From Dehalococcoidia bacterium (GTDB lineage Bacteria; Chloroflexota; Dehalococcoidia; Lucifugimonadales; SHYT01), in assembly GCA_009693055.1 (NCBI GenBank), contig SHYA01000002.1, forward strand, positions 124,001-188,000: DNA of 64,000 bases. Reading direction: 5' to 3'. The notes beneath the pieces are model-generated. The model saw only the letters and a list, made by a program, of their open reading frames with translations. It was not told where the DNA came from and made no database searches. Each line of letters starts with the position of its first letter. Position 1 is the first letter of the stretch. A program made the position numbers and the translations under genes. Shown here in pieces: positions 31,161-59,179 of the stretch.

Positions 31161-32216
31161 ATGGTGACTTCGGCGAAGCGGTCCCAAACGACTGGTATCC
31201 CGGCATCCCTTGAGCGATACCGCCCCTTGGTGGTGACGGCGCTCAAAGAGGCGGTGCCCGACAGCGTGACGCCGCTTTACCGCCTGCTCCGCTACCACAT
31301 GGGCTGGTTGGACCAGGAGGGCAGGCCCGCCGAGGCGAGCCAGGGTAAGGCCCTGCGTCCCCTGCTGTGCCTGTTTGTCTGCGATGCGGTGGGTGGAGAC
31401 CCGGCTCAGGCTATGCCGGCCGCCGTTGCGCTTGACCTCATCCATAACTTCTCGCTCATCCATGACGACATCCAGGACGAAGACCGGGAGCGCCGCCACC
31501 GGCCCACCTTGTGGGTCTTGTGGGGCCGTCCGCAAGCCCTGGTGGCTGGGAACGCGATGCGCCTCGTTGCGGACAGGGCGCTCCAGACCCTGTCCAGCAG
31601 AGGGGTTCCACAGGAGCGCGTGCTTGGAGCATCGCGCTACCTCACCGAGCGGTACCTTGAAATGATTGAGGGCCAGTACCTGGACTTGAACTACGAAGGA
31701 CGGACGGACATCACGGTGGATGACTACCTCACGATGATCAGCCGAAAGACCGGCACCCTGCTTGAGGCCGCGATGTACCTTGGCGCCTACCTGGGTTCTG
31801 AGGACCAGGAGCGCGTTGCGGCGCTGCGGCGCTGTGGACGGCTGCTTGGCCTTGCGTTTCAGGCCCGGGACGACATCCTTGGCATCTGGGGCGACGAAGA
31901 CGTGCTTGGCAAAGCAACCGGCGCCGACCTTCGCAAGCAGAAGCGTTCACTGCCGGTGGTGTACGCGCTCCAGATGAGCACCGGGGCAAGGAAGAGGCGG
32001 CTGCAGGAACTGGCCTCGCGGCCTCAGCTCGAAGACACCTATGTGGAGGAAGCCCTCGGCATCCTGGAGCAGACTGGCGCGCAGGAGTTCGCGCAGCGGC
32101 TTGCGGACGAAAAGGGGGCTGAGGCCCTGGAGTGGGCCCGAGCCGCAGCCTTGCCTCAGGACGCTCAGCAGGACCTGGAAGAGCTTGTCCACTTTGTTCT
32201 GGCGCGCCAGCATTAG
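31161..32216 (+). CDS. Polyprenyl (farnesyl/geranylgeranyl-type) diphosphate synthase
   Basis: A 351-residue trans-prenyltransferase condensing isopentenyl diphosphate onto allylic diphosphates. GKALRPLLCLFVCDAVGG, the first Asp-rich motif LIHDDIQDEDRERRHRPT and the second region QARDDILGIWGDE are clear. The second motif reads DDxxG with further acids, as in many geranylgeranyl/farnesyl synthases from this type of bacterium. Two bulky residues before DDIQD (S-L-I-H) fit a short-chain product. First in the hopanoid run, it would supply C15 farnesyl diphosphate for HpnC/HpnD. Confidence 0.9.
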   Translation: MVTSAKRSQTTGIPASLERYRPLVVTALKEAVPDSVTPLYRLLRYHMGWLDQEGRPAEASQGKALRPLLCLFVCDAVGGDPAQAMPAAVALDLIHNFSLIHDDIQDEDRERRHRPTLWVLWGRPQALVAGNAMRLVADRALQTLSSRGVPQERVLGASRYLTERYLEMIEGQYLDLNYEGRTDITVDDYLTMISRKTGTLLEAAMYLGAYLGSEDQERVAALRRCGRLLGLAFQARDDILGIWGDEDVLGKATGADLRKQKRSLPVVYALQMSTGARKRRLQELASRPQLEDTYVEEALGILEQTGAQEFAQRLADEKGAEALEWARAAALPQDAQQDLEELVHFVLARQH

Positions 32217-32260
32217 GCAAGGCGGCCGCAAAGACGGCAGGCCGGTTGGGAGACGAACGA

Positions 32261-33388
32261 GTGAGTACGCTCCAGATTAAGAAGGCTGAGCCAAAGCTGA
32301 AGACCGCTGAGGAGGCGCTGAAAGAGTTCATGCCGGCCGGGCGCCGCGTGGCCCCCAAGCGTCCCTTTGTGCTGGGGCTCCGATTGTTCGCCTACATGGC
32401 GAAACAGCGGCTGCTCCGCCGTCGCAAGCGCTTCCCGCTCGTCACCATGCTGGAGCCCTTGGAGGCGTGCAACCTGACCTGCGACGGCTGTGGGCGCATT
32501 CGCGAGTACGAGCCGGTGATCCACCGGATGCTTACGGTGGAGGAGGCGGTTGCCGCCGTGGAGGCCTCCGGCGCGCCCATCGTGTCCATCGCGGGGGGCG
32601 AGCCGACGATGTATCCGCACCTTCCCGAGCTTATCAAGGAGCTAGTGCGCCGCAAGTACTTCATCTACTGCTGCACGAATGGGATCCTGTTGGAAAAGGT
32701 GATGAAGCAGGTCCCGCCTTCCAAGTACCTCGCGTGGGTGGTCCACCTGGACGGGATGGAGGAGCGGCACGACGTCTCGGTGGCTCGCCGTGGCGTCTTC
32801 CGGGTCGCCATGCGGGCCGCGAAGAAGGCGCTGGAAGGGGGGTACCGAGTTTGCTCCAACTCCACCTTGTTCAAGGGCGCGGACAAGCAAGACCTGCACC
32901 AGCTGTTTGACCTGGTGACCACCATGGGCTTTGAGGGCATCATGGTCTCCGCCGGGTACGACTTTGCCATGGCGCCGGACCAGGAGCTGTTCCTCAAGCG
33001 GAAGGAGTCCAACGCCCTCTTCCAGGAGCTTCTGGACGACCAGTCCATCAAGCAGTTCCGGTTCTACAACAACCCGCTCTACCTGGACTTCCTCAAAGGC
33101 AGACGGAGCTATCAGTGCACCGCGTACTCCAACCCCACGTACACCATCCAGGGGTGGCGTGAGCCGTGTTACCCGCTTGCGGACCGTCACACGCAGAACG
33201 TGAACGACCTTTTTGAGCCCGCCCTTTGGGAGCGTTACGGCGTTGGCAAGAACCCCAAGTGCGCCAACTGCATGATGCACTGCGGATTTGAGTCGGCCAC
33301 CATCTTTGAGGCCTTCAAGAATCCCAAGGACATGATGGTGATGCTGAAGGGGATCGCGACGCAGAAGAGCGGCGTGGGCGCCAGCTAG
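32261..33388 (+). CDS. hpnH: Adenosylhopane synthase, radical SAM (HpnH)
   Basis: A 375-residue radical SAM enzyme that adds the 5'-deoxyadenosyl radical to diploptene, forming adenosylhopane. The 4Fe-4S motif is C70-x3-C74-x2-C77 (CNLTCDGC), followed by SIAGGEPTMYPHL. The family-specific C-terminal part has YQCTAYSNPTYTIQGWREPCYPLADRH and CANCMMHCGFESATIFEA. The GTG at 32261 is chosen because GGGAGA lies 7 bases upstream; an ATG at 32330 would shorten the N-terminus. Its place next to the nucleosidase, epimerase and cyclase confirms the role. Confidence 0.95.
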   Translation: MSTLQIKKAEPKLKTAEEALKEFMPAGRRVAPKRPFVLGLRLFAYMAKQRLLRRRKRFPLVTMLEPLEACNLTCDGCGRIREYEPVIHRMLTVEEAVAAVEASGAPIVSIAGGEPTMYPHLPELIKELVRRKYFIYCCTNGILLEKVMKQVPPSKYLAWVVHLDGMEERHDVSVARRGVFRVAMRAAKKALEGGYRVCSNSTLFKGADKQDLHQLFDLVTTMGFEGIMVSAGYDFAMAPDQELFLKRKESNALFQELLDDQSIKQFRFYNNPLYLDFLKGRRSYQCTAYSNPTYTIQGWREPCYPLADRHTQNVNDLFEPALWERYGVGKNPKCANCMMHCGFESATIFEAFKNPKDMMVMLKGIATQKSGVGAS

Positions 33389-33394
33389 GCCGGA

Positions 33395-34174
33395 GTGAAG
33401 AGCGCGGTGTTCGTTGTGATTGCGGCCATGAAGGAAGAGGTGAGCGGCATCCGCAGGCTGGGGACGTGGCGTCCCACCAAGGCCGGAGGCTGCGCCGCCT
33501 TCCTCAACGAGGAGCTGGCAGGGGGAGCTACGCTCCTGGCCGTGAGCGGCATGGGGAAAGAGGCCGCCTTGAACGCGGGGCGTCGGCTTTTGGCGGACCG
33601 AGGGCCCAAGGTACTGGTCTCCATTGGTTTTGCGGGCGCGCTCGACCCAGGGCTGCGGCCGGGAGCCCTTCTGGTCGCCAGCCGGCTTCGACCCTGGCCG
33701 GACGGGCGTGAGGGGGCCTTGCGGCCGGACCAAACGCTTGAACAGCTCGCGCATCAGACGGCGGTCACGCTGAAGATGCCGTGCTACGCGGGGGACTGGC
33801 TTACCGTGGACGCGGTCGTTGCATCAGCGGTGGAGAAGCGGCGTCTTCGCCTTGAGACCGGCGCTGTTGCTGTTGAGATGGAGAGTTGGTACCTCGCACA
33901 GGCCGCGCAGGAGGCAGGGGTGCCGTTCGTGGCGATTCGGACGGTGCTCGACGAAGCGGGCCGAGGGCTGCCCCAGGTCATCGCGCGCTCCGCGGGCCGT
34001 CCCAGGGCGCTTGACATGGCGGTGAGCGTTCTCTTGAGGCCGCTTGACACCCCCTCGCTGATCGGCTTGGGCAGGGCGCTGGTCCTGGCTCGTAGGAGCT
34101 TGGCCAGGTTTGTGATGCCGTTCCTGGAGCTTTTGGCGAAACAGTCCGCTCTGCGGGCTTATGGAAGTGGATGA
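33395..34174 (+). CDS. hpnG: Hopanoid nucleoside phosphorylase/nucleosidase (HpnG)
   Basis: A 259-residue protein of the purine nucleoside phosphorylase/MTA-SAH nucleosidase fold. HpnG removes adenine from adenosylhopane to give ribosylhopane or its phosphate. Motifs: the N-terminal VIAAMKEEVSGIRRLG (equivalent to the nucleosidase AMEEE region), SIGFAGALDPGLRPGALLVA, VAVEMESWYLAQAAQEAGVPFVAIRTVLDEAG with the conserved Met-Glu and a later Asp in the catalytic position. It starts at a GTG 6 bp after hpnH and overlaps hpnA by four bases. It could also process 5'-deoxyadenosine, which is relevant to the kinase and aldolase downstream. Confidence 0.88.
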   Translation: MKSAVFVVIAAMKEEVSGIRRLGTWRPTKAGGCAAFLNEELAGGATLLAVSGMGKEAALNAGRRLLADRGPKVLVSIGFAGALDPGLRPGALLVASRLRPWPDGREGALRPDQTLEQLAHQTAVTLKMPCYAGDWLTVDAVVASAVEKRRLRLETGAVAVEMESWYLAQAAQEAGVPFVAIRTVLDEAGRGLPQVIARSAGRPRALDMAVSVLLRPLDTPSLIGLGRALVLARRSLARFVMPFLELLAKQSALRAYGSG

Positions 34175-35169
34175 AGGTCCTGGTTACCGGGGCCACGGGT
34201 TTTGTTGGGAACCACGTGGCCCAGGCACTGGCGGGCCGTGGCGCGGCTGTCCGCGTCCTGGCGCGCAGCGGAAGCCCGCACCTTACCAGGCTCAATACGG
34301 GTTGGGAGCTGGTCCTGGGAGACGTCCAGGACCCCGCCTCGGTGCGAGAGGCCGTTCGCGGGTGTGACGCGGTGTTCCACGTCGCGGCCCGCTACAGCTT
34401 CTGGCCCACCGGCGTCCGTTCCTACTACGCGACCAACGTTGTGGGGACAAGGAACGTATTGCAGGCGGCGCTGGAAGCGGGAGTCAAACGGGTCGTGCAC
34501 ACCAGCTCATGGGTCACGGTGGGCAAAAACCGATCTGGCGGTCTCAGCACGGAGGCGGATACACCGAGTCGGAGCGAGCTCCGCGGCGCTTACCGCTGGA
34601 CCAAGTACCTTGCCGAGCAGGAGGCGCTGGGCTATGCGGCCAAAGGCCTGAACGTGGTGGTGGTGAACCCGACAGTCCCGGTGGGTCCCGGAGACGCGAG
34701 GCCCACGCCGACCGGCAGGCTGGTGGTGGACTTCTTGCGGCGGCGTCTGCCGGCGTTCGTGGACGTGCAGTTGAATCTGGTGGGAGTAGAGGACGTGGCC
34801 GAAGGACACGTGCTGGCGTGGGAGAAGGGGCGGGCCGGCGAGCGGTACCTGCTGGGGTGCAGCAACATGACCCTGGGGCAAATGCTCGGCGTGCTGGCGC
34901 GGCAGACCGGCATTCGGGCGCCGCGTCTCCGGTTGCCTCAGCCGCTGGTCCTGGCGGCCGCCTACGCGGACAACGCGATCGAGGGAGGCTTGCTGCGACG
35001 AGAGCCACGCATCCCTCTGGAAGGTGTCCTGCACGCGGGACGGCGCGTCCAGGTGGACTGCCGGAAGGCGACGCAAGAGCTTGGCTTTCAACCCACCTCT
35101 GTGGAGGAGGCGCTGCTGAGAGCGGTCAACTGGTACCGCCAAAACGGATATGCAAACGAGAGACGTTAG
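34171..35169 (+). CDS. hpnA: Hopanoid-associated sugar epimerase (HpnA)
   Basis: A 332-residue extended SDR. TGATGFVGNHVA binds NAD at the N-terminus; HTSSWVTVG carries the catalytic serine region and YRWTK the Tyr-Lys pair. NPTVPVGPGDARPTPTGR is characteristic of the HpnA group. The exact reaction of HpnA is not settled; it is consistently linked to hopanoid clusters. The ATG overlaps the hpnG stop (ATGA), and the stop is 3 bp before shc. Another SDR at 44603 closes the same gene run. Confidence 0.88.
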   Translation: MKVLVTGATGFVGNHVAQALAGRGAAVRVLARSGSPHLTRLNTGWELVLGDVQDPASVREAVRGCDAVFHVAARYSFWPTGVRSYYATNVVGTRNVLQAALEAGVKRVVHTSSWVTVGKNRSGGLSTEADTPSRSELRGAYRWTKYLAEQEALGYAAKGLNVVVVNPTVPVGPGDARPTPTGRLVVDFLRRRLPAFVDVQLNLVGVEDVAEGHVLAWEKGRAGERYLLGCSNMTLGQMLGVLARQTGIRAPRLRLPQPLVLAAAYADNAIEGGLLRREPRIPLEGVLHAGRRVQVDCRKATQELGFQPTSVEEALLRAVNWYRQNGYANERR

Positions 35170-35172
35170 CGA

Positions 35173-37203
35173 ATGGTTAGGCTGAAAGGGCAGGCCGAGA
35201 AGAGCTCGCTGAAGACGGCCGTGGACATCGCAGTCCAGCGCTCGCGTGAGTACCTCCTTGCCTGCCAGCACACGGAAGGCTACTGGTGGGGACGCCTGGA
35301 GTCCAACTCCACCATGGAGGCCGAGTACCTGATGTTGCAGCACTTCATGGAGGTGCCGGACCGGAGCAAGTGGCCGAAGCTGGTCAAGTACATCCTTACG
35401 CAACAGCGCCAGGATGGCTCCTGGGGGCAGTACTACGGAGCCCCAGGGGATGTGAGCACCGCGGTGGAGTGCTACTTCGCGCTCAAGCTGGCGGGCGTCT
35501 CGCCGGAAACCCTCGCGATGCAGAGGGCGAAGCAGTTCATTCTGAGCAGGGGCGGCGTCCCCAAGACGCGCGTGTTTACCAAAATCTGGCTGGCGCTCCT
35601 CGGGCAGTGGCCGTGGGAGGGCGTTCCCGCCATGCTTCCCGAGTTTACCATCGTGCCGGCCCGGTTCCCTCTGAACATCTACAGCATGTCAAGCTGGGCG
35701 CGGGGCACGGTGGTCCCCATCCTTATCTTGGTGGCCAAGAGACCCGTCCGTCCGGTGCCTGAATCGGCTTTTATCAACGAGCTGTTTCCAGATGGCGCGG
35801 ACAAGCGACAGCACCACATCCGAAGGCCCAAGCCGCTGGTGAGCTTGCCCGGGCTGTTTTGGGGCGTGGACAAGGGTTTGCGGCTGTACGAGAAGATACC
35901 TATCAAACCGGGCCGCGGTTACGCCTTCCGCAAGGCGGAGCGATGGATCGTTGAACACCAGGAGGCTGACGGCTCGTGGGGCGGCATCCAGCCTCCATGG
36001 GTGTACTCGCTCATGGCGCTCAAGACGTTGGGGCGTTCTTTGGACGACCCGGTTATCGCCAAGGGGCTGAAGGGGTTCGACGGGTTTGCCATCGAGGACG
36101 AGGAGACGTTCAGCGTGCAGGCGTGCGTCTCGCCGGTGTGGGACACGTGCCTGGCGATGATTGCGCTCGAAGACGCCGGAGTGCCGCCGGACCATCCCGC
36201 GCTCCAGCGCGCGGCCGCGTGGCTGTTGGCCAGGGAGATCCGCAAGCGCGGGGACTGGAGCGTACGCGTTCCCAAGGCGGAGCCGAGCGGATGGCCGTTT
36301 GAGTTTTCCAACGACTGGTATCCGGACATTGACGACACGGCGGAGGTGCTAATCGCGCTGCACCGTTCGAAGCTCGCCCCTCCGGATGAGGAGCGCAAGC
36401 AGGCGGCCATTGACCGGGCCACCGCCTGGTTGTTGCACATGCAGAGCAGGGATGGGGGCTGGGCCGCCTTTGATAAAAACAACCTCACCGATGCCGTGGC
36501 CAAGCTGCCGTTCAGCGACTTTGGAGAGATGCTTGACCCGCCCAGTGCGGACGTGACCGCACACGTGTTGGAGGCCCTGGGGCGCTTGGGGTACGGGGCG
36601 GACCACGGTGCGGCGCGGCGCGGGCTGGCTTACCTTTGGAAGGAGCAGGAGCCGGAAGGGCCGTGGTTCGGACGCTGGGGAGTCAACTACATCTACGGAT
36701 CGGGCGCCGCCGTGCCGGCGCTTGAAGTGTTGGACCAGGACGTGTCCGACCCGCGCGTTCAGAAAACGGTCGCGTGGCTGGTACAGCACCAGAACCAGGA
36801 CGGTGGATGGGGCGAATCGTGCACAAGCTACGTTGACGCTTCGTGGCGGGGCCGCGGGCCCAGCACCGCTTCCCAAACGGCCTGGGCGCTTCTGGCACTG
36901 ATGGCTGCGGGGCAATGGGGTCACGCCGCGGTGGAGCGGGGGCTGCTGTACCTCGCCGGCACCCAAAAGAGCGGCGGCTCTTGGGATGAGCCGTGGTTTA
37001 CGGGCACCGGCTTCCCCGGCTACGGCATCGGCCGGCCACACCGAAAACAGCCGAAGCCGGGGGAGAACGGCTACCAGGGCGCTGAGATGGCCGCCGGCTT
37101 CATGATCAACTACAACATGTACCGAAACTACTGGCCGCTCATGGCGCTGGGACGTTACAAGCGCCATCAAGAGGGCGTCATCCGGAGAAGCACGGACGGC
37201 TAA
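35173..37203 (+). CDS. shc: Squalene-hopene cyclase
   Basis: A 676-residue membrane-associated cyclase turning squalene into hopene and hopanol. The catalytic DxDD motif is Asp385-Ile-Asp387-Asp388 in WYPDIDDTAE; Asp387 would be the proton donor. Many QW repeats are visible, such as QRQDGSWG, HQEADGSWGG, MQSRDGGWAAFD, NQDGGWGESC and TQKSGGSWDEPWFTGTGFP. The last is the conserved C-terminal region. Full length compared with about 630-680 residues for the family. The ATG follows hpnA after 3 bp. This is the committed step of the operon. Confidence 0.97.
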   Translation: MVRLKGQAEKSSLKTAVDIAVQRSREYLLACQHTEGYWWGRLESNSTMEAEYLMLQHFMEVPDRSKWPKLVKYILTQQRQDGSWGQYYGAPGDVSTAVECYFALKLAGVSPETLAMQRAKQFILSRGGVPKTRVFTKIWLALLGQWPWEGVPAMLPEFTIVPARFPLNIYSMSSWARGTVVPILILVAKRPVRPVPESAFINELFPDGADKRQHHIRRPKPLVSLPGLFWGVDKGLRLYEKIPIKPGRGYAFRKAERWIVEHQEADGSWGGIQPPWVYSLMALKTLGRSLDDPVIAKGLKGFDGFAIEDEETFSVQACVSPVWDTCLAMIALEDAGVPPDHPALQRAAAWLLAREIRKRGDWSVRVPKAEPSGWPFEFSNDWYPDIDDTAEVLIALHRSKLAPPDEERKQAAIDRATAWLLHMQSRDGGWAAFDKNNLTDAVAKLPFSDFGEMLDPPSADVTAHVLEALGRLGYGADHGAARRGLAYLWKEQEPEGPWFGRWGVNYIYGSGAAVPALEVLDQDVSDPRVQKTVAWLVQHQNQDGGWGESCTSYVDASWRGRGPSTASQTAWALLALMAAGQWGHAAVERGLLYLAGTQKSGGSWDEPWFTGTGFPGYGIGRPHRKQPKPGENGYQGAEMAAGFMINYNMYRNYWPLMALGRYKRHQEGVIRRSTDG

Positions 37204-37224
37204 GCCGGAAAGGGAGAGGCGATC

Positions 37225-37788
37225 ATGCTGGGAACCAAACAGGTCACGCGGGTGCAGCTCAGCACGGGGACGGACTGTCCAAAGATAGAGAAGAACGGCA
37301 CCGGCAAACACAGTCCGCGCGGAGCCGTAGAAAAGAGGCCGGGGATGACGACGTACGCAGCGGCGCTGAAGCTTTCCACCACCACCGCCCCCGAGTTTAT
37401 TGACATAACCGAGGACATCCGCCACGTGACCGTGGAGTCCCAGATCCAGAACGGTTTTGTTGTGGTCTTCTCCCGTCACACCACGGCGGCGGTAATCGTG
37501 AACGAGAACGAACCGCTGCTCCTTGAGGACATCAAGAAGCGGCTTGAGGAGTTTGCTCCTCGCCATGATTACTACCGGCACAATGACTTTACTATCCGCA
37601 CTGTGAACATGGAGGAGAACGAGTCTCCCAACGGTCACGCCCATTGCCAGCATCTTCTCCTAGGTTCAAGCCAGACCATTCCGCTCATCGAGGGGAAGCT
37701 GTACCTTGGCCGCTGGCAAAGGATTTTTTTCTTGGAGCTGGACTCGCCGAGGGCACGGGAGGTTGTGGTGCAGGTGGTGGGGGAGTAG
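37225..37788 (+). CDS. YjbQ/UPF0047-family protein
   Basis: The conserved 140-residue YjbQ domain starts near TTYAAALKLSTTTAPEFIDIT. It includes VVFSRHTTAAVIVNENEPLLLEDI, GHAHCQHLLLGSSQTIPLIEGKLYLGRWQRIFFLELD. The histidines of HTTAAV and GHAHCQHLL fit the family's metal site. Relatives show thiamine-phosphate-synthase-like side activity; the true role is unclear. The ATG at 37225 with AGGGAGAGG gives 187 residues including a 40-residue polar extension; the ATG at 37345 gives a standard 147. It lies between shc and hpnC with gaps of 21 and 6 bp, so it is clearly part of the operon, which is unusual for this family. Confidence 0.82.
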   Translation: MLGTKQVTRVQLSTGTDCPKIEKNGTGKHSPRGAVEKRPGMTTYAAALKLSTTTAPEFIDITEDIRHVTVESQIQNGFVVVFSRHTTAAVIVNENEPLLLEDIKKRLEEFAPRHDYYRHNDFTIRTVNMEENESPNGHAHCQHLLLGSSQTIPLIEGKLYLGRWQRIFFLELDSPRAREVVVQVVGE

Positions 37789-37794
37789 CAGCCC

Positions 37795-38700
37795 ATGACG
37801 GCGGTGAAGAGTGGCAAGGCGTTTGGAGCGTTGCCCGCCGGACCGGTGTCCAGTGAGCAGGCTTATCAGCTTTGTCTTGCCCTCGTCCGCGCGCACTACG
37901 AGAACTTCTCCGTCGCCACCCGCTTTCTGCCCCGTGAGCTGCTTCCGCACATGGCGGCCGTCTACGCGTTCTGCCGCACGGTGGACGACCTGGGGGACGA
38001 GGCAGAAGGCGACCGCTTAGCCCTGTTGGACGGCTGGGAGACGGACCTGCTCCGGTGTTACAGCGGCGTGCCGCAGCATCCCTATCTCGTGGCCCTTCAA
38101 CAGACTATCCGCGCGTTTGACATTCCGCGAGAGCCGTTCCTCAGGCTCGTCCAGGCCAACCGGATGGACCAGACCACCAAGCGCTATCCCACGTTCACCG
38201 ACGTGCTCTCTTACTGCGAGCACTCCGCGAACCCGGTCGGCCACCTGGTGCTCTACGTCTTCGGCTACCGCGACCAGGAGCGGCAACGCCTAGCGGACAA
38301 CACCTGCACGGCGCTGCAGCTCGCGAACTTCTGGCAAGACGTCCGGCGCGACTACGCCGTGGGCCGTATCTACTTGCCGCGGGAAGACATGGCGCGCTTT
38401 GGTTGCGCCGAGGATGAACTTGCGCGAGGCGTGGCCAGCCTGGCCCTCCGCGAGCTCATGGCCTTTGAGGTGCAGCGCGCGCGGGAGCTGTTCGTCAAGG
38501 GCCTTCCCCTGGTAGGCATGGTGGCGGGGAAGCTCAAGCTGGACCTCGCCCTCTTTTCCCGCGGGGGCATGAGTATCCTGGATGCCATTGAGCGTCAGCA
38601 GAACGATGTGCTCCGAAAACGCCCTCAGGTGACGGCGGGGCGCAAGGCCTGGCTGTTCCTCCGCACGTACCTGGACCTCAGGCTAGGCAGACTTGGCTAA
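37795..38700 (+). CDS. hpnC: Squalene pathway enzyme HpnC (hydroxysqualene synthase)
   Basis: A 301-residue trans-isoprenyl diphosphate synthase, head-to-head type. HpnC converts presqualene diphosphate to hydroxysqualene. The two acidic motifs are VDDLGDE (in VYAFCRTVDDLGDEAEGD) and FWQDVRRDYAVGRIYLP; HYENFSVATRFLPRELLPH is the HpnC-type N-terminus. The paired gene hpnD follows directly, as in known three-gene squalene routes. The ATG is 6 bp after the preceding stop. Confidence 0.92.
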   Translation: MTAVKSGKAFGALPAGPVSSEQAYQLCLALVRAHYENFSVATRFLPRELLPHMAAVYAFCRTVDDLGDEAEGDRLALLDGWETDLLRCYSGVPQHPYLVALQQTIRAFDIPREPFLRLVQANRMDQTTKRYPTFTDVLSYCEHSANPVGHLVLYVFGYRDQERQRLADNTCTALQLANFWQDVRRDYAVGRIYLPREDMARFGCAEDELARGVASLALRELMAFEVQRARELFVKGLPLVGMVAGKLKLDLALFSRGGMSILDAIERQQNDVLRKRPQVTAGRKAWLFLRTYLDLRLGRLG

Positions 38701-38740
38701 CCAGGCGGCGCAAGTTCCAGCGGGAGAGGGCGGGACAACG

Positions 38741-39625
38741 ATGGCGGTGGCAGTCCCTGTCCAAGAGGCGTATGCGCATTGCCAGCAGGTGACCCGCGCG
38801 GCCGCCAAGAATTTCTACTACGCTTTCATCACCCTCCCCAAGCCTCAACGCCAGGCGATCTACGCGGTGTACGCCTTCTGCCGCGTCTGCGACGACATCG
38901 CGGACGGACCGGCGCCCGTGGAGGAGAAGGCGCTGCGGCTGGCGGACGTCCGGGAGGCGTTGTCTGAGGCGTACCAGGGCAAGCCCAGGGACACGGTGTT
39001 CACCGCCCTTGCCCACACGGTGCAGGCGTACAGTATCCCGCAGCGGTACCTGGACGAGATTGTGCGCGGCGTGGAGATGGACCTCACGGTGAGACGGTAT
39101 CAGACGTTTGAAGAGCTTAGGCTCTACTGCTACCGGGTCGCCTCGTGCGTCGGGCTCGTGTGCACGCGCATCTTTGGCGGCTCCGACCCGAAGCTGGAAC
39201 CTCTTGCTACTGACCTTGGCCTGGCGATGCAGCTGACCAACATCATGAGGGATGTCAAGGAGGACGCGGCGCAAGGCCGCATCTACATTCCGCTGGAGGA
39301 GATGGAGCGTTTCGGTTACACGCCTGACGAGCTTGGCAATGGCGTGCTCAACCCTGCGTTTGCCGGCCTGATGCGATTCCAGGCCAAGCGGGCTCGCGGG
39401 TATTTTGCGAGCGGCATGAGGCTTGTCCCCTTGTTGCCCTGGCGCTCGCGGGCCTGCCCGGCCGTCCTGGCGGGGCTGTATGCTTGTATCCTGGACCGGA
39501 TAGAGGCAAGGGAGTACAACGTGTTCCAGGGGCGCATCCGGCTCTCCTCGCGGGAAAAGCTGTTCCTGGCGTTGCGCATATGGCTTCGGACCGCACTGCC
39601 GTGGCCCAGCCGCAGCGCTGTGTAG
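38741..39625 (+). CDS. hpnD: Presqualene diphosphate synthase HpnD
   Basis: A 294-residue enzyme joining two farnesyl diphosphates to presqualene diphosphate. Motifs: NFYYAFITLPKPQRQAIYAVYAFCR, CDDIADG as the first acidic motif, YRVASCVGLV and NIMRDVKEDAAQGRIYIP as the second. The ATG at 38741 follows gggagaggg and gives the usual short N-terminus; a TTG at 38693 overlapping hpnC would add 16 residues. The 3' end overlaps hpnE by 46 bases, so translation is coupled. HpnC and HpnD are clear paralogues that have diverged in the active-site flanks. Confidence 0.92.
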   Translation: MAVAVPVQEAYAHCQQVTRAAAKNFYYAFITLPKPQRQAIYAVYAFCRVCDDIADGPAPVEEKALRLADVREALSEAYQGKPRDTVFTALAHTVQAYSIPQRYLDEIVRGVEMDLTVRRYQTFEELRLYCYRVASCVGLVCTRIFGGSDPKLEPLATDLGLAMQLTNIMRDVKEDAAQGRIYIPLEEMERFGYTPDELGNGVLNPAFAGLMRFQAKRARGYFASGMRLVPLLPWRSRACPAVLAGLYACILDRIEAREYNVFQGRIRLSSREKLFLALRIWLRTALPWPSRSAV

Positions 39626-40995
39626 TCATTGGCGGCGGGCTGGCCGGCCTTTCCGCCGCTCTTGACTTGCTGGACGCGGGCCACGCGGTCACACTGGTGG
39701 AGCGGCGTCCTTTCCTTGGCGGCCGGGCCTATTCGTTCACCGACCAGGACACCGGCCAAGAGGTGGACAACGGCCAGCACGTTTTCCTGGGGTGCTGCAC
39801 CGCCTACCGAGCCTTGCTTGAACGCCTGGGCGCACAGGGCCGCACCTCGCTCCAACCCTGGCTTTCCGTCCCGGTCGTTGGCCGGAACGGGGTGCGGAGC
39901 ACGCTCGCCGCGGTCCCGTGGTTGCCGTTCCCTCTCCACCTGTTGCCTGCGCTCTTGAGCTACCGGCACCTGTCTTTGCGTGAGCGGCTCACCACCCTCC
40001 GCGTTCTGCTCGTCCTGATGCGGACGGACCGCGAGCGGCGCCATGCCGACTTGGAGAGCCAGTCTTTCAAGGACTGGCTGCTAGCACGCGGGGAACGGCC
40101 GCGCTCCATCCAGCGTTTTTGGAACCTGATCATCCTCCCAACGTTGAACGATGACGTCGGCGCGGTGAGCGCCGCTATGGGCATCATGGTCTTTCAGGAG
40201 GCGCTCTTGCATGGCAAGCACGGCGGGGAGATCGGCTATTCTCGAGTCGGATTGACCGCGCTCGTGAGCGATCCCGCGAAGGCGGTCTTTGAGCGCGCCG
40301 GCGGGCGATTGCTCCTCGGACAAGGCGCTGTTCGGCTTGGCCTCAGAGAGGGGCGGGTGGATGCGGTTGAGCTCTCCGGCGGACATCGCGTAGAGGGCGA
40401 CCTGTTTGTCAGCGCGGTGCCCTGGGAGGCGCTTCTGAAGCTCCTGCCGGAGCCGTGGCCGCGCGATCTCTTCTTTGCGCCCGCGGCCACGCTGGAGGCT
40501 GCCCCGATCGTCGGCGTTCACCTCTGGTATGACCGGGCGGTGATGGACGACGCCTTCGCCGCGTTCCTGGACACCCCGGTCCAGTGGGTCTTCAACAAGA
40601 GCAGCATCATGGGCTTGAGCGGGCCGGGGCAGTACGTGTGCATCTCTTTGAGCGGCGCTTGGGAGTTCGCTCCGATGAGCAAAGAGGAGCTGCGCACGTT
40701 GTTTGTGGAGGAGATGGCGCGCCTCTTCCCAAAGGCGCGCGAGGCGAAGGTGGAGCGATTCATCGTGGTGAAGCAGCTCAGTGCGACGTTCCGCTCGAAG
40801 CCCGGCGCCGCGTCTGGGCGGCTCGCCCAGCAGACGCCAATCGCGAACCTGTTCCTCGCCGGAGACTGGACTGAGACCGGGTGGCCTTCCACGATGGAAT
40901 CAGCCGTGCGCAGCGGGAAGCTTGCGGCTGGCGCCGCCCTGCGCCATGTGCCCTCGTCCCTGGCTTCCAGCCTCTCCACTGAGGGTGAAGCGTGA
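39580..40995 (+). CDS. hpnE: Hydroxysqualene dehydroxylase HpnE
   Basis: A 471-residue FAD amine-oxidase-fold enzyme that reduces hydroxysqualene to squalene. CVVIGGGLAGLSAALDLLDAGHAVTLVE is the FAD-binding motif; RRPFLGGRAYSF and EVDNGQHVFLGCC are typical of HpnE. FLAGDWTETGWPSTMESAVRSGKLA is the C-terminal FAD-contact motif. The ATG at 39580 sits inside the end of hpnD. With HpnC and HpnD it completes the farnesyl diphosphate to squalene route. The stop overlaps the next start (GTGA), which extends the operon beyond known hopanoid genes. Confidence 0.94.
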   Translation: MASDRTAVAQPQRCVVIGGGLAGLSAALDLLDAGHAVTLVERRPFLGGRAYSFTDQDTGQEVDNGQHVFLGCCTAYRALLERLGAQGRTSLQPWLSVPVVGRNGVRSTLAAVPWLPFPLHLLPALLSYRHLSLRERLTTLRVLLVLMRTDRERRHADLESQSFKDWLLARGERPRSIQRFWNLIILPTLNDDVGAVSAAMGIMVFQEALLHGKHGGEIGYSRVGLTALVSDPAKAVFERAGGRLLLGQGAVRLGLREGRVDAVELSGGHRVEGDLFVSAVPWEALLKLLPEPWPRDLFFAPAATLEAAPIVGVHLWYDRAVMDDAFAAFLDTPVQWVFNKSSIMGLSGPGQYVCISLSGAWEFAPMSKEELRTLFVEEMARLFPKAREAKVERFIVVKQLSATFRSKPGAASGRLAQQTPIANLFLAGDWTETGWPSTMESAVRSGKLAAGAALRHVPSSLASSLSTEGEA

Positions 40996-41978
40996 AGGCG
41001 CTGGTGCTGGCGCCGTTCCTTGAAGAATCGCTCGGTGTACTGCGGCGGCGCGTTGAGGTGGTGTACGAGCCGTGGACCGAGACGCGGCGGTTGTGGGACC
41101 CCAGGGAGCTGGCGCAGCGGCTGAGGGCCGAGGAGATCGGTATAGTGGTCATAGAGGCCGATTTCTTGTTTGAGGACGTGTTCGCCGAGGGCACCCCCCT
41201 CCGTTTTGTTGGCGTGTGCCGCGCTGCCTTGAACCACGTGGATCTGGAGGCGGCCACGCTCAGAAACGTTCTTGTGGTCAATACTCCCGGAAGGAACGCC
41301 CAGGCGGTGGCCGAGCATACGTTGGCGCTTCTGCTCGCGCTGACGCGGCGCATTCCACCGGCCCACGCTTACGTGCAGGCCGGGCGCTGGGAAGACCCGA
41401 TGGAGCCCTACATCACGATGCGCGCAGTGGAGTTGGGCGGGAAGACGTTGGGTGTAGTAGGATTAGGCCGCGTTGGACGCCTGGTTGCGCGCCTGGGCAG
41501 GGCTTTCTCTATGCGCGTGGTCGGCAGCGATCCGTACGCGAAAATTCCACGAGGGGTCCAGGCGCTGGCGCTTGACGAGCTGCTTCGGCAAAGCGACGTG
41601 GTGACGCTGCACGCTCCGGAGCCTCCCACCGGCGTACGGTTGCTGGACGCCAAAAAGCTGGCCTTGATGAAGCCAACCACTTACCTGATCAACACCGCCG
41701 CACCCGGGCTCGTGGACGCTGAGGCGCTGGCGGAAGCGCTTCAGGGCGGACAGCTTGCGGGAGCCGGACTCGATGTGTTTGACAGCGCGCCGTTGCCAAA
41801 GAGCAGTCCGCTGCTCTCCCTGGAGAACGTCGTGCTGACTCCGCACATCGGTGGGGCCACCGACGCCACGATAGCCCGTTACTCGCGATCAATGACCGAG
41901 GATGTGCTGCGCTTCTTGGACGGCCGGGTCCCGCTACGCGCCGTGAACCGCAGGGTGTTGGGCCGGTGGCGTGGCTAG
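40992..41978 (+). CDS. D-2-hydroxyacid-dehydrogenase-like protein lacking catalytic Arg and Glu
   Basis: A 328-residue protein of the phosphoglycerate/lactate dehydrogenase fold. The NAD-binding motif is VVGLGRVGRLVARLGRAF. The final His285 (TPHIGGAT) is kept. The segment normally written NTARGGLVD reads NTAAPGLVD, so the substrate-binding Arg is Ala237. The normal DVFxxEP reads DVFDSAP, so the catalytic Glu is Ala266. The spacing of 29 residues equals Arg240 to Glu269 in E. coli SerA, which confirms the register. It is therefore unlikely to run the usual reaction; it may bind a ligand or do altered chemistry. The GTG start overlaps hpnE by four bases and the end overlaps the kinase by eight. 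Confidence 0.85.
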   Translation: MKALVLAPFLEESLGVLRRRVEVVYEPWTETRRLWDPRELAQRLRAEEIGIVVIEADFLFEDVFAEGTPLRFVGVCRAALNHVDLEAATLRNVLVVNTPGRNAQAVAEHTLALLLALTRRIPPAHAYVQAGRWEDPMEPYITMRAVELGGKTLGVVGLGRVGRLVARLGRAFSMRVVGSDPYAKIPRGVQALALDELLRQSDVVTLHAPEPPTGVRLLDAKKLALMKPTTYLINTAAPGLVDAEALAEALQGGQLAGAGLDVFDSAPLPKSSPLLSLENVVLTPHIGGATDATIARYSRSMTEDVLRFLDGRVPLRAVNRRVLGRWRG

Positions 41979-43479
41979 CTCCATCCTTGCCCTTGACCTG
42001 GGGAGCAGCAGCATCAAGGCGCTGGTGGCGGACGGCACCGGACGGCCTGGGACAGCGGCGGTCGCCAAAGCCCCCATTCGCACGCCGCGAGGCGTTGGTG
42101 GCCTGGCCCGTGAGTTCCGGGCGGAGCAGCTTTGGGGCACCATCGTGCACGTCGCGCGGCAGGCGATCGAAGACAGCAGCGTTGCGTCGCGGGACATCGC
42201 GGCTATCGGGGTGACAAGTCAGCGGCAGGGGATAGCTCTCCTGGATAAGGCCGGCCGCGAGTTGTATGTGGGTCCCAACACAGACCTCCGCGCCCTCTTT
42301 GAGGGCGCGGAGCAAGACGAGGCCCACCGGGAGCTCTTTTATCGGACGACCGGGCATCTGCCCCCCTTCTTCATGGCGCCCGCGAAGCTCCAGTGGTTCA
42401 AACTGCACCGGCCACGCCTCTACGAGCGCGTCGCTACCGTGCTGACCCTCGCCGACTGGGCTGTCTTTCGGTTGACCGGCGAGCGCGCCGGCGAGCGGGC
42501 GCTGGCTGGCGAGGCTGGCCTGGTGGCCGTGACGAAAGGCCGGTGGGCCCAGCAGCTTATGCGGACCCTGGGTTTGCGCGACGACTGGTTTCCGCCCCTT
42601 GTGGCTACGGGTGCGGTGATTGGGCACCTCAGTTCGGGGGCTGCCGGAGCCCTTGGGCTGCGCCCTAAGACCCTGGTGGTTGCGGCCGGCCCCGACACCC
42701 AATGCGGCCTGCTGGGTATGGGGGTGAGCAGCGCGGGGCAGGTGGGTGTTGTGGCGGGATGGAGCATGGCGGTACAGCGCGTGACCAGCGCGCCAAGGCT
42801 CGACATGCAGCACCACACCTGGCTTGGGCTGCACCCGCTGCTAGAGCGCTGGGTCTTGGAGGCGAACCTGGGCGACGCGGGAGCGTCCTATCAATGGGTC
42901 GCGCGCACCCTCTACGGGACTCGGCCGGCGGCGTACGCCATGATGGAACGTGCCGCAGCGAAGGTGCCGCCGGGCGCGGAGGGCGCGACAGCCTTCGTGG
43001 GTCCATCCTTCCTGGACATGAGCAACCCGGGCATGCGCATGGGCGGGGTGCTCTTCCCTTTACCACTGGGCCAGGCCGCCGTGCGGCCGGCGAGCATCGC
43101 CCGCGCGGCGTTGGAGGGGACAGCGTTTGCCGTTCGGGAGGCGCTGGAGCACCTGCAGGCGGTTGACGGCCGTGCTGCCGTGGACGTGGCTATGGGGGGA
43201 GGGATGCTTCGCACCGGGCCGCTCCCGCAGCTCGTCGCGGACGTGTGCGGTCGCGAGCTCCGCCTTGCCACCGTGTCGAACGTCTCAGCCTATGGAGCTG
43301 TCCTGGCGGCCGCAGCCGGCATCGGGGTCTTCGTCGGGCTGGAAGAGGCTGCGGCACAGGGCGGCCTCGAAACGCTTCCGGTCCGTCAAAGCCCGGAGGC
43401 GGCGCTGCAGTATAATGACCTGTACCATCGCTGGCGGCGCCTCCGGGCAGAGGTGGAGCGCCTACCCTTGGACGGCTGA
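41971..43479 (+). CDS. FGGY-family carbohydrate kinase
   Basis: A 502-residue two-domain sugar kinase of the xylulose/gluconate/glycerol kinase group. ALDLGSSSIKALVADG is the first phosphate-binding loop; VTSQRQGIALLDKAGRELYVGPNTDLRA is the substrate-side region in xylulokinase-like members. The C-terminal MGGGMLRTGPLPQLVADVCGREL and SNVSAYGAVLAAAAGIGVF form the adenosine site. The sugar cannot be told from sequence. The GTG start overlaps the dehydrogenase-like gene by eight bases, and an aldolase follows after 17 bp: kinase plus aldolase is the standard pair for ketose phosphate cleavage. Confidence 0.88.
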   Translation: MASSILALDLGSSSIKALVADGTGRPGTAAVAKAPIRTPRGVGGLAREFRAEQLWGTIVHVARQAIEDSSVASRDIAAIGVTSQRQGIALLDKAGRELYVGPNTDLRALFEGAEQDEAHRELFYRTTGHLPPFFMAPAKLQWFKLHRPRLYERVATVLTLADWAVFRLTGERAGERALAGEAGLVAVTKGRWAQQLMRTLGLRDDWFPPLVATGAVIGHLSSGAAGALGLRPKTLVVAAGPDTQCGLLGMGVSSAGQVGVVAGWSMAVQRVTSAPRLDMQHHTWLGLHPLLERWVLEANLGDAGASYQWVARTLYGTRPAAYAMMERAAAKVPPGAEGATAFVGPSFLDMSNPGMRMGGVLFPLPLGQAAVRPASIARAALEGTAFAVREALEHLQAVDGRAAVDVAMGGGMLRTGPLPQLVADVCGRELRLATVSNVSAYGAVLAAAAGIGVFVGLEEAAAQGGLETLPVRQSPEAALQYNDLYHRWRRLRAEVERLPLDG

Positions 43480-43496
43480 GGCGGGACGAGAGAGCT

Positions 43497-44168
43497 GTGG
43501 CTGAGAAGTGGCTCGCGGAGCGTCGGCGTGTCATGCTCGTGGCGAAGGAGCTGGAGCGGCTTGGCCTTGTCGCCGGCTCCAGCGGCAACGTCAGCGCCCG
43601 CGTGCAGGAACGGGGCCGTCCACTGCTGGTCATCACGCCAACTTCTCGCTCCTACTCCTCCCTCAGGGTGCGAGACGTGGTCGTGATAGACTATGAGGGC
43701 GAGCCGATGAGAGGCACCTTACCACCCTCCTCGGAGACGATGCTGCACGTGGCGGTCTACCAGGCGCGCCGTGACGTGGGGGCGGTCATCCACACGCATT
43801 CCATCTACGCCAGCGCCTGTGCCGTGGCCGGCCTGGAGGTCCCGCCTTTGCTGGACGAGATGGTTGTCTACCTTGGGGGCGGGATCAAGGTAGCGGAGTA
43901 CGGGTTCCCCGGAACCACGGAGCTTGGCGCGAAAGCGTGCGCGGCCCTAGGAGACCGGAAGGCGGTACTCCTCCGTAACCACGGGATGGTGGGCGTCGGC
44001 GCTACGCTTGAGGAAGCGATGGGAGTCTGTCGCCTGGTGGAACGAGCAGCCCACATCTTTGTCATGGCCTCGCTGCTCGGCTCGCCGACACCGCTTCCCG
44101 CCGATGTCGTGGAGAAAGAGCGCGCTCTTTACGGTATGAGGCTTCGCGCGGAGGGTGGCCCCTCGTGA
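43497..44168 (+). CDS. Class II aldolase/adducin-family protein (fuculose-phosphate type)
   Basis: A 223-residue zinc aldolase of the fuculose-1-phosphate/ribulose-5-phosphate 4-epimerase family. SSGNVSARV binds the phosphate; Glu in PSSETMLH is the catalytic acid; HTHSIYAS and the later RNHGMVGVG supply three zinc ligands. It would cleave a ketose-1-phosphate to dihydroxyacetone phosphate and an aldehyde, or epimerise. The kinase upstream could supply the substrate. The start is a GTG; the Shine-Dalgarno (gggacgagag) is fair. Related enzymes act on 5-deoxyribulose phosphate in salvage of radical-SAM by-products, which is notable next to hpnH. Confidence 0.87.
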   Translation: MAEKWLAERRRVMLVAKELERLGLVAGSSGNVSARVQERGRPLLVITPTSRSYSSLRVRDVVVIDYEGEPMRGTLPPSSETMLHVAVYQARRDVGAVIHTHSIYASACAVAGLEVPPLLDEMVVYLGGGIKVAEYGFPGTTELGAKACAALGDRKAVLLRNHGMVGVGATLEEAMGVCRLVERAAHIFVMASLLGSPTPLPADVVEKERALYGMRLRAEGGPS

Positions 44169-44250
44169 GGCGGGTCCCTCGCGTGGTTGCCGATCGCCGA
44201 GACTACCGTTATCCAGGGACGCCCAGGATACCCTGTCCGTGGAGGGCCGC

Positions 44251-44622
44251 ATGGTAGCTGTGCCTGGCTTTCTCTTGAGGCGGCTGTACGTCAAGGGGAG
44301 CTTGAAGAATACTCACGAAGGGTTCCAGTTCCTGCTCAAGAACTCGCTCGGCTCCGGCTACGCCCGGAAGATGAGTCCCATCTGGGTGGATGGGCAGTCG
44401 CTTCCGCTGGACTCCAGCGCTTTCCATCTGGCTGGGGGGGTGGTCTCCTTCGCCAAGGTCTCGGAGGAGACCCCGATGACCCTCGCGATGAATAAGCCCA
44501 TTACGATCACCACCAAGGGGCACCGGCTGACCCCGGGGCCGCACAAAATCGGGATGGGGTTTGAGGTCCCCGGACTGGGCACCCTGAGCTTTGACTTCAC
44601 GGATGTCGTCCAAGAGGTTTAG
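44251..44622 (+). CDS. Unknown small protein, probably all-beta
   Basis: A 123-residue soluble protein. VPGFLLRRLYVKGSLKNTHEGFQFLLKNSLG, then GGVVSFAKVSEETPMTLAMNKPITITTKGH and GPHKIGMGFEVPGLGTLSFDFTDVV suggest a beta-sandwich ending in a paired hairpin. No catalytic motif is recognised. GGAGGG lies 4 bases before the ATG. It starts 82 bp after the aldolase and its end overlaps the next SDR gene by 20 bases, so it belongs to the same transcript. Confidence 0.7.
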   Translation: MVAVPGFLLRRLYVKGSLKNTHEGFQFLLKNSLGSGYARKMSPIWVDGQSLPLDSSAFHLAGGVVSFAKVSEETPMTLAMNKPITITTKGHRLTPGPHKIGMGFEVPGLGTLSFDFTDVVQEV

Positions 44623-45574
44623 GCAATTCAGGGTGGCGGTCACCGGCGCCACGGGTTACGTGGGCTCCAGGCTGACCCTTGCGCTCTCCCGTTTCGACGA
44701 AGTTGAGTCGGTCCTGGCGCTTGACACGCGCCAACTCCCCTCGCTGCCGCCAAAGGCCCGAATGCTCCTCTGTGACGTTGGGTCCAGGGACGCGCTGGAA
44801 CGTGCGTTTGCGGAGTACCAGCCGGACGTTGTTGTCCACCTGGCGTACCGGATGAACCCCGGTTACGACCGGGAGGCGGCGCGGCGCATCAACGTCGGCG
44901 GCACCGCCAACCTGTTACAGGCTTGTGGCCGGGCGAAGGTGCGACTCATCGTGTATCTGAGCAGCACGTCCGTGTACGGTGCGCATCCCGATAATCCTAA
45001 GCTCCTCACCGAAAAACAACCCCCGCGGCCGGTGCGGGGGTTTGCCTATTCGGAGGACAAGCTCGCGTCGGAACGGCTGTTTGGGGAGTACGCTTCGCAG
45101 CACCCGGACACCATCGTGACGGTGCTGCGGGGGTGCGTGGTGATGGGGCCGCACGCGAACAACTTCATCGCCAACGCGCTCACGAAACCGGTGATGGTGG
45201 GTGTCTTAGGATGCGACCCGCCGATGCAGTTCCTCCACGAAGACGACCTGGTGGAGCTCCTGATCCGCCTTATTCACGAGCCGCAGCCCGGCATTTACAA
45301 CGTCGGCGGTGAGGGGACGGTGCGCTACAGCCGCGTAGTGCGCGCGTCCGGGCGTCCACTCGTCCGGCTGCCGGCTCTGGTGCTCTATCCGGTCATCCAG
45401 CTGCTGTGGCTGCTGCGCGCGCAGAGGGACTCACCCGCGTGTGGCCTTGACCTCGTCCGGTGGCCGTGGGTGGCCAGCGCGGAGAAGCTCAAGGCTGAGA
45501 CCGGCTTCAAACCGCGCTACACTTCGCAGCAGGCGCTGGAAGCGTTTTTGGCGGCCCGGAGGACAAGGAGCTAG
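44603..45574 (+). CDS. NAD-dependent epimerase/dehydratase (extended SDR)
   Basis: A 323-residue extended SDR. VAVTGATGYVGSRLTLAL binds NAD near the N-terminus; LSSTSVYGAH and YSEDKLASERL give the Ser and Tyr-Lys active site. MQFLHEDDLVELLIRLI and GIYNVGGEGTVRYS are typical of sugar-nucleotide epimerase relatives. The ATG at 44603 lies within the preceding gene; a TTG at 44591 would add four residues. It closes the plus-strand run that began with the prenyl synthase. It is a distant relative of HpnA at 34171, so two SDR enzymes bracket the module. Confidence 0.87.
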   Translation: MSSKRFRQFRVAVTGATGYVGSRLTLALSRFDEVESVLALDTRQLPSLPPKARMLLCDVGSRDALERAFAEYQPDVVVHLAYRMNPGYDREAARRINVGGTANLLQACGRAKVRLIVYLSSTSVYGAHPDNPKLLTEKQPPRPVRGFAYSEDKLASERLFGEYASQHPDTIVTVLRGCVVMGPHANNFIANALTKPVMVGVLGCDPPMQFLHEDDLVELLIRLIHEPQPGIYNVGGEGTVRYSRVVRASGRPLVRLPALVLYPVIQLLWLLRAQRDSPACGLDLVRWPWVASAEKLKAETGFKPRYTSQQALEAFLAARRTRS

Positions 45575-45627: not shown

Positions 45628-46407
45628 TTAGAGCCCCGTGATGTTGTACCCGGCGTCGACGTGGATGATCTCGCCGGTCACGCCGGAGGAGAGCTCGCTG
45701 GCGAGGAACAGGGCCGTGGTGCCCACCTCCCGGTGCGTGATGTTTCGCTGGAGCGGTGCCCGCTCGGCGTGGACGCGCTTCATATCCACGAAGCCGTGGA
45801 TGCCACGCGCGGCGAGCGTGTCCAGCGGCCCGGCTGAGATGGCGTTCACGCGGATATTCTTAGGCCCCAGCTCGTAGGCGAGCTGCCGCATCTCGTGCTC
45901 CAGCGCCGCCTTGGCCGTGCCCATCACATTGTAGCCCGGGAACACGCGGGTGGACGCCTGGAACGTCATCGTGATGATGCTCCCGCCGTTCGCCTCCATG
46001 AGCGGCGCGGCGCAGCGCACGATGGGAAGAAGGGAGTACGCGCTCACCTGGAGCGCGAGGCGGTACCCTTCCCACTCGGTCCGGAGGAACTCGCCGCTCA
46101 GGTCGTCCTTGTTCGCAAAGGCGAGGCTGTGCACCAACACCGAGACGGTGCCAAAAGCATCCCCAATGGTCTTGAAGGCCTGGCGGACCGTCTCCTCCTC
46201 CGTCACGTCGCAGTGCACCATCAGCGGAGGCTGTTTGAGCAAGGGAGCGAGCTTGTCCAGGTTTTCCTTGAGCCGGTCGTTCTGATACCCGAGAGCGAGC
46301 TGCAGGCCTGCCTCGTCCAGCGCTTGCGCGATGGCCCACGCGATGCTGCGGTGGTTCGCGACACCCAGAACGACGCCCTTCTTACCGCTCAGGTCGATCG
46401 TGAGCAC
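45628..46407 (-). CDS. fabI: Enoyl-ACP reductase (FabI)
   Basis: A 259-residue NADH-dependent reductase of the last step in fatty-acid elongation. GVANHRSIAWAIAQALDEAG is the FabI-type cofactor motif; VHSLAFANKDDLSGEF and FPGYNVMGTAKAALEHEMR carry the Tyr-x6-Lys pair. SAGPLDTLAARGI is the substrate-loop region. Full length. A 9-bp inverted repeat (45595-45603 with 45631-45639) lies at its 3' end, overlapping the last codons, and may separate it from the convergent SDR gene. Confidence 0.95.
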   Translation of the reverse strand: MLTIDLSGKKGVVLGVANHRSIAWAIAQALDEAGLQLALGYQNDRLKENLDKLAPLLKQPPLMVHCDVTEEETVRQAFKTIGDAFGTVSVLVHSLAFANKDDLSGEFLRTEWEGYRLALQVSAYSLLPIVRCAAPLMEANGGSIITMTFQASTRVFPGYNVMGTAKAALEHEMRQLAYELGPKNIRVNAISAGPLDTLAARGIHGFVDMKRVHAERAPLQRNITHREVGTTALFLASELSSGVTGEIIHVDAGYNITGL

Positions 46408-59102: not shown

Positions 59103-59179
59103 GGCCCGGTGGTGTAGCGGCCTAACATACCTCCCTGTCACGGAGGAGACCGGGGGTTCGAATCCCCTCCGGGTCGCCA
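59103..59179 (+). tRNA. tRNA-Asp (GTC anticodon)
   Basis: A full cloverleaf can be drawn. The acceptor stem ggcccgg pairs with ccgggtc (one G-T pair), the discriminator base is G and CCA is encoded. The anticodon stem-loop is cctcc-ctgtcac-ggagg with GTC. The T arm is ccggg-ggttcgaatc-ccc type with GTTCGAATC. The D arm holds gtgtagcggcctaac. Length is 77 bases with CCA. Confidence 0.95.

Follow-up and report, generated by a model that had tools for sequence, protein, structure and literature searches.

Hopanoids are lipids of bacteria that resemble sterols. In hopanoid biosynthesis, HpnH attaches a 5'-deoxyadenosyl group and HpnG then removes the adenine (PMC12583986). Beyond ribosylhopane the pathway is less settled: the enzyme that converts ribosylhopane to bacteriohopanetetrol (BHT) is not established (PMC12583986). 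The window analysed here, a 64,000-nucleotide stretch from a Dehalococcoidia bacterium, covers positions 124001-188000 of contig C5 in genome G000, which comprises 1.51 Mb in 11 contigs (throughout, G, L and f numbers denote genomes, loci and families). It contains a same-strand run of 14 open reading frames (ORFs) filling 31161-45574 (+), which resembles the described hopanoid (hpn) cluster in that shc, hpnA, hpnC, hpnD, hpnE, hpnH and an hpnG-like gene lie in one run. In contrast to that cluster, five extra genes follow hpnE, an arrangement found only in Chloroflexota as far as we searched. This cassette encodes a protein with a D-2-hydroxyacid dehydrogenase (2HADH) fold, an FGGY kinase, a class II aldolase, a small protein related to the β subunit of C-glycoside deglycosidases (CGDs) and an extended short-chain dehydrogenase/reductase (SDR). 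A literature search that could not reach most subscription journals returned no paper pairing "FGGY" with "hopanoid", and the cassette is apparently an undescribed, conserved extension of the hopanoid operon. The reading that best fits our results is that of an optional side-chain tailoring module acting downstream of HpnH and HpnG in Dehalococcoidia-type Chloroflexota, and a functional tie between the cassette and C35 hopanoids is very probable.

The gene order is the first line of evidence. All 14 ORFs that the initial annotation had assigned to the run were found on the plus strand, and the overlaps it had described are exact, with 4 bases shared between hpnE and the dehydrogenase gene and 8 bases between the dehydrogenase and kinase genes. 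In 10-20-kb stretches from 18 relatives of the same order, the order dehydrogenase-kinase-aldolase-small protein-SDR recurs, and all but one of these blocks adjoin hopanoid or squalene genes; the block of G077 stands alone, and the contig of G022 ends within the block. When the small protein, which also served as the cassette marker, was used as a query against 84,980 species, it returned 54 loci, every one in Chloroflexi/Chloroflexota, Dehalococcoidia or SAR202 records. Among 62 cassette runs, the aldolase and small-protein genes are adjacent in 60, the kinase and aldolase genes in 53 and the dehydrogenase and kinase genes in 49, while hpnE or hpnD lies immediately 5' of the cassette dehydrogenase in 23 and the fifth slot is taken by an HpnA-like SDR in 16. 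In 27 genomes from 14 families of the order, at most 25 kb separate the marker from the squalene-hopene cyclase (SHC) gene. The cassette genes share an operon with hpn genes in a different order of the class as well (family f47, L151 and L152), where the genes run prenyl synthase-hpnH-small X-hpnG-hpnA-shc-ispG-hpnC-hpnD-hpnE-dehydrogenase-kinase-aldolase-small protein, with DXS upstream. Even split cassettes leave parts beside hpn genes, as in G105, where the dehydrogenase gene adjoins hpnE and shc, and in G023, where the kinase gene is 6 kb from shc. Because the gene order is conserved in so many relatives, a chance neighbourhood is ruled out.

Two small features of these loci were also observed. 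In family f6, a NUDIX-family gene lies between hpnE and the cassette dehydrogenase (L038:7217-7705 (-), L040, L045 and L047). Where HpnH is of the canonical type, a small conserved protein of ~100-126 residues with a GYLFNRN motif and no Pfam match is encoded between hpnH and hpnG (L152:13445-13807 (-), L124, L125, L128 and L151).

The second line of evidence is co-occurrence. Among 117 relatives, SHC was found in 59, HpnH in 56 and the small-protein marker in 55. The marker and HpnH occur together in 48 genomes, with 7 having only the marker, 8 only HpnH and 54 neither (p = 7e-17); the corresponding counts for the marker and SHC are 50, 5, 9 and 53 (p = 7e-18). Since the genomes are related, the figure by family majority is the safer one, and it gives 17, 3, 3 and 18 for the marker and HpnH (p = 7e-6). 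All 15 sponge-type genomes with an unlinked cassette carry HpnH elsewhere, and in a 400-genome sample of the phylum HpnH is present in 22 of the 25 genomes bearing a close marker. The linkage that the initial annotation had proposed to look for in relatives was thus recovered, as the block follows hpnE or hpnD in many families and tracks HpnH even when unlinked.

The cassette proteins themselves indicate what chemistry may be involved. The 2HADH-like protein (40992-41978, +; PF02826, 180 bits) has both Pfam domains, the NAD-binding fold and its glycines, as in D-2-hydroxyacid dehydrogenases, together with the catalytic His285 in 44/44 cassette homologues and Glu or Asp at position 264 in 42/44. 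Unlike in that family, the catalytic Arg, which is present in both PDB references, is missing in all 44 homologues (A237 in the window protein), and a new Arg77 in the substrate loop is invariant (44/44). The family's catalytic Arg binds the carboxylate of the substrate; its loss therefore implies a substrate without the 2-hydroxyacid carboxylate. For the FGGY kinase (41971-43479, +; PF00370/PF02782), which belongs to a ketose/polyol type of kinase, the closest solved structure is the autoinducer-2 (AI-2) kinase LsrK. The class II aldolase (43497-44168, +; PF00596, 166 bits) retains the equivalents of FucA G28, N29, S71, E73, H92, H94 and H155 in 49/49 homologues, including the three zinc-binding His residues and the catalytic Glu73.

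Family trees had been suggested as a check on the kinase and the aldolase, and we used them only for statements of what these proteins do not group with. The cassette kinases form their own branch (support 97) apart from FucK and RhaB, with long reference branches. In the aldolase tree, where the reference branches are also long and the placement of the aldolase is weak, DrdA falls with the FucA rows (support 85) and outside the cassette rows. Neither enzyme thus groups firmly with the E. coli fucose or rhamnose enzymes. The neighbours of plasmid-borne aldolases lie in different sugar contexts and were uninformative.

The fourth cassette protein (44251-44622, +), called unknown in the initial annotation, is recognisable as a PF25653 member (69 bits). 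Its AlphaFold model (predicted local distance difference test (pLDDT) score 88) has a CGD-β-type fold: the top 17 Foldseek matches are all CGDs, mostly β subunits, with a best E-value of 7.5e-8 and a template-modelling (TM) score of ~0.7. A profile match to 8umc was also obtained (E 0.0015), and the protein scores below the gathering threshold of PF19906 (19.6 vs 27.6 bits). In CGDs, the β subunit adjoins the catalytic α subunit and makes contact with the substrate (PMC12141560). The cassette may be likened to a CGD system further, in that an oxidoreductase would work alongside an enzyme that breaks the carbon-carbon bond joining a sugar to a bulky partner; it differs in that the block has no gene for an α subunit (sugar isomerase/epimerase-like) and the neighbour of the β-like protein is a class II aldolase. 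In other Chloroflexota, remote PF25653 homologues are fused to HMG-CoA reductase as its N-terminal domain (L140:88-1632) and to a glycosidase-like protein at its C-terminus (L143:6124-8823), so that the CGD-β-like fold is a portable accessory domain. The cassette SDR (44591-45574, +; PF01370, 122 bits) was modelled with high confidence (pLDDT 96) in the sugar-nucleotide epimerase/dehydratase fold, and the fold search returned only generic enzymes of that kind, giving no hint of the substrate. The window SDR also contains a hydrophobic 19-residue stretch with a Kyte-Doolittle (KD) value of 1.89; its homologues stay below 1.6, so this stretch is not used as evidence.

From these observations we infer the following substrates and products. 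The cassette would act on the C5 sugar side chain once HpnH has added it and HpnG has taken off the adenine. A redox step by the 2HADH-fold enzyme could give the ketose form of the ribosyl or polyol side chain, the FGGY kinase would phosphorylate its terminal hydroxyl (C35), and the class II aldolase would cut between C32 and C33 to release dihydroxyacetone phosphate (DHAP) and a C32 hopanoid aldehyde. The CGD-β-like protein may serve as an aldolase subunit that holds the large lipid moiety, and the SDR, or the HpnA-like SDR found in that slot, would reduce or oxidise the C32 aldehyde. Ketose phosphorylation followed by retro-aldol cleavage of the C35 side chain is a tentative proposal, somewhat more likely to be wrong than right. 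The fuller version, in which the CGD-β-like protein has been recruited as a lipid-gripping aldolase subunit in a dedicated Chloroflexota route from C35 to C32 hopanoids and DHAP, is doubtful.

Several observations weigh against a hopanoid tailoring role. In the 400-genome phylum sample, 38 genomes have HpnH without a close marker, which shows that the cassette is unnecessary for C35 hopanoids; the cassette mostly accompanies HpnH while HpnH does without the cassette, as expected if the tailoring module is an optional one. Conversely, the cassette is kept without HpnH or SHC in G004, G034, G083 and G085, and G417 and G471 have it without HpnH. G085 and G034 lack SHC and HpnH and retain squalene genes together with some of the cassette, and in G073 (L133:16607-18524, L134) SHC and HpnH are only short remnants while the kinase and the aldolase-small protein-SDR block look intact. 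The cassette may therefore serve another role in carriers that lack HpnH or SHC. Single cassette genes are missing in some lineages (L058 lacks the kinase gene, and L086 lacks both the dehydrogenase and the aldolase gene), and the cassette block contains no aldose-ketose isomerase. In addition, the substrates are read from the enzyme families, and FGGY kinases and class II aldolases mostly act on small soluble sugars.

The main rival, which we consider rather unlikely, is that the cassette salvages a small nucleoside-derived sugar, either 5-deoxyribose from abortive radical-S-adenosylmethionine (SAM) turnover or nucleoside ribose, by nucleosidase action, isomerisation, phosphorylation and cleavage to DHAP and an aldehyde. 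The initial annotation had seen the gene order of the DHAP shunt (drdKIA) mirrored in the run. The closest solved structure to the aldolase is indeed that of DrdA (6BTD; PMC6079011) at 117.6 bits, with the zinc-binding His residues and catalytic Glu in place, and an HpnG-like nucleosidase and a kinase lie in the same run; FucA, however, scores almost equally (112-114 bits). The shunt order as described was not supported, as the kinase is of the FGGY family, unlike the MtnK-like DrdK (PMC6079011), the run has no methylthioadenosine (MTA) phosphorylase, the isomerase is not clustered with it, and the dehydrogenase, the CGD-β-like protein and the SDR are extra. Moreover, HpnH puts the 5'-deoxyadenosyl group into the product, so that no stoichiometric 5-deoxyribose by-product is expected. 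A nucleoside hydrolase (PF01156, inosine-uridine-type) directly 3' of the cassette, assigned by Pfam in L062:11671-12570, L071:11285-12220 and L086:11315-12250 and read by eye in L056, L058 and L074, favours salvage, as do the persistence of the cassette in genomes that lost SHC or HpnH and the MtnA-family isomerase beside an MtnP-like gene in the window's own genome. Yet general radical-SAM salvage should not follow HpnH, and the cassette does (p = 7e-17). The alternative suggestion of the initial annotation, C5 sugar chemistry of adenosylhopane, fits better as a putative role than by-product salvage.

The isomerase had been noted as lying outside the window, and a search for MtnA elsewhere in the genome located its only copy at G000:C11:244545, next to the MtnP-like phosphorylase as read by eye. 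In this region of contig C11 (L053:7613-9537 (-)), the MtnP-like and MtnA genes stand side by side near a SAM synthetase and an SahH-like gene; they were named from sequence, MtnA by family search.

It is also conceivable, if unlikely, that the aldolase is synthetic or epimerising, working by retro-aldol and aldol steps to give a side-chain stereoisomer or another head group and not a shortened C32 hopanoid. The co-occurrence with HpnH fits this equally well, some members of the class II aldolase family are 4-epimerases, and the run holds two epimerase/dehydratase-type SDRs; against it, Glu73 is present in 49/49 cassette aldolases, where the E. coli AraD epimerase has Asp. We consider it very unlikely that an unrelated sugar-catabolic cassette came to lie behind hpnE by accident. 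Every one of the enzyme families is common in sugar catabolism, and a remote PF25653 homologue (L145) lies among GH4/GH29-like, FGGY and aldolase genes as read by eye. L-fucose and L-rhamnose catabolism use the same kinase and aldolase superfamilies and the same logic, in which a ketose-1-phosphate is cleaved to DHAP and an aldehyde. The cassette differs from them in its own kinase clade and in that its block lacks a FucI/RhaA-type isomerase gene. Neither a transporter nor a regulator lies with it in the window, and its conservation across 14 families and a second order, together with its tracking of HpnH when unlinked, argues against an accident.

Finally, it is extremely improbable that the cassette stands in for DXS, with the aldolase building deoxyxylulose and the FGGY kinase phosphorylating it to 1-deoxy-D-xylulose 5-phosphate: the cassette shares its run with a prenyl synthase, and canonical DXS was found in 23/117 relatives and not in G000, against DXR in 110/117 (and in G000) and HMGR in 0/117, but we rejected this as the main reading because the presence of the cassette is not associated with a lack of DXS (p = 0.36), 52 genomes have neither, and the L152 operon carries both. 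Apart from the cassette, most genomes of the order, including that of the window, have the methylerythritol phosphate (MEP) pathway without a known entry enzyme (G000 and relatives; L161, L162, L163). DXS was not found in the dxr neighbourhoods examined, and a split transketolase (L139:4513-6405) is a candidate for the MEP entry enzyme.

As a deeply conserved and probable side-chain tailoring module whose occurrence follows HpnH in uncultured Chloroflexota from marine and fresh waters, the cassette supplies concrete candidates for the steps after ribosylhopane, and it may let these bacteria rework or cut the hopanoid side chain in a new way. C32 hopanols and hopanoic acids are usually taken as burial products. 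If the module shortens the side chain, the C32 hopanoids found in water and sediment could come straight from living bacteria, which would alter the reading of these biomarkers; a C35 to C32 route, if true, would mean that living cells produce C32 hopanols and hopanoic acids. Plakohopanoid, a C32 hopanoid from sponges, is not counted as evidence here. A CGD-β-type accessory protein encoded next to an enzyme of another class also offers a lead on how sugar enzymes may be adapted to lipid-bound substrates.

The remainder of the run consists of nine genes on the plus strand. It opens with a polyprenyl synthetase (31161-32216; PF00348, 199 bits), followed by hpnH, the radical-SAM adenosylhopane synthase (32132-33388; TIGR03470, 412 bits, cut-off 225), whose ORF opens at GTG 32132 and for which GTG 32261 is the likelier start. 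Next are the hpnG-like nucleosidase/phosphorylase (33395-34174; PF01048), the SDR epimerase gene hpnA (34171-35169; TIGR03466, 388 bits, cut-off 368), shc (35173-37203; TIGR01507, 776 bits, cut-off 431), a UPF0047/YjbQ family gene (37225-37788; PF01894; TIGR00149, 118 bits), hpnC (37795-38700; TIGR03464, 330 bits, cut-off 250), hpnD (38741-39625; TIGR03465, 302 bits, cut-off 279) and hpnE (39580-40995; TIGR03467, 401 bits, cut-off 283). Of the hopanoid names given in the initial annotation, HpnA, HpnH, SHC, HpnC, HpnD and HpnE all pass the curated NCBIfam cut-offs; HpnG does not (TIGR03468, 132.9 vs 187.1 bits), and its top match and position are nonetheless those of HpnG. The UPF0047/YjbQ gene had not been named, and it adjoins shc in 16/62 cassette runs. 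ATG 44251, not GTG 44155, is the most likely start of the small cassette gene, although the ORF is also open from the GTG, and the cassette SDR starts at TTG 44591 or ATG 44603. A promoter and terminator scan found sites no commoner than in shuffled sequence. The run is flanked on the opposite strand by lysA (29542-30858, -) and fabI (45628-46407, -), identified from sequence and Pfam, and a tRNA-Asp gene lies further along the window at 59103-59179.

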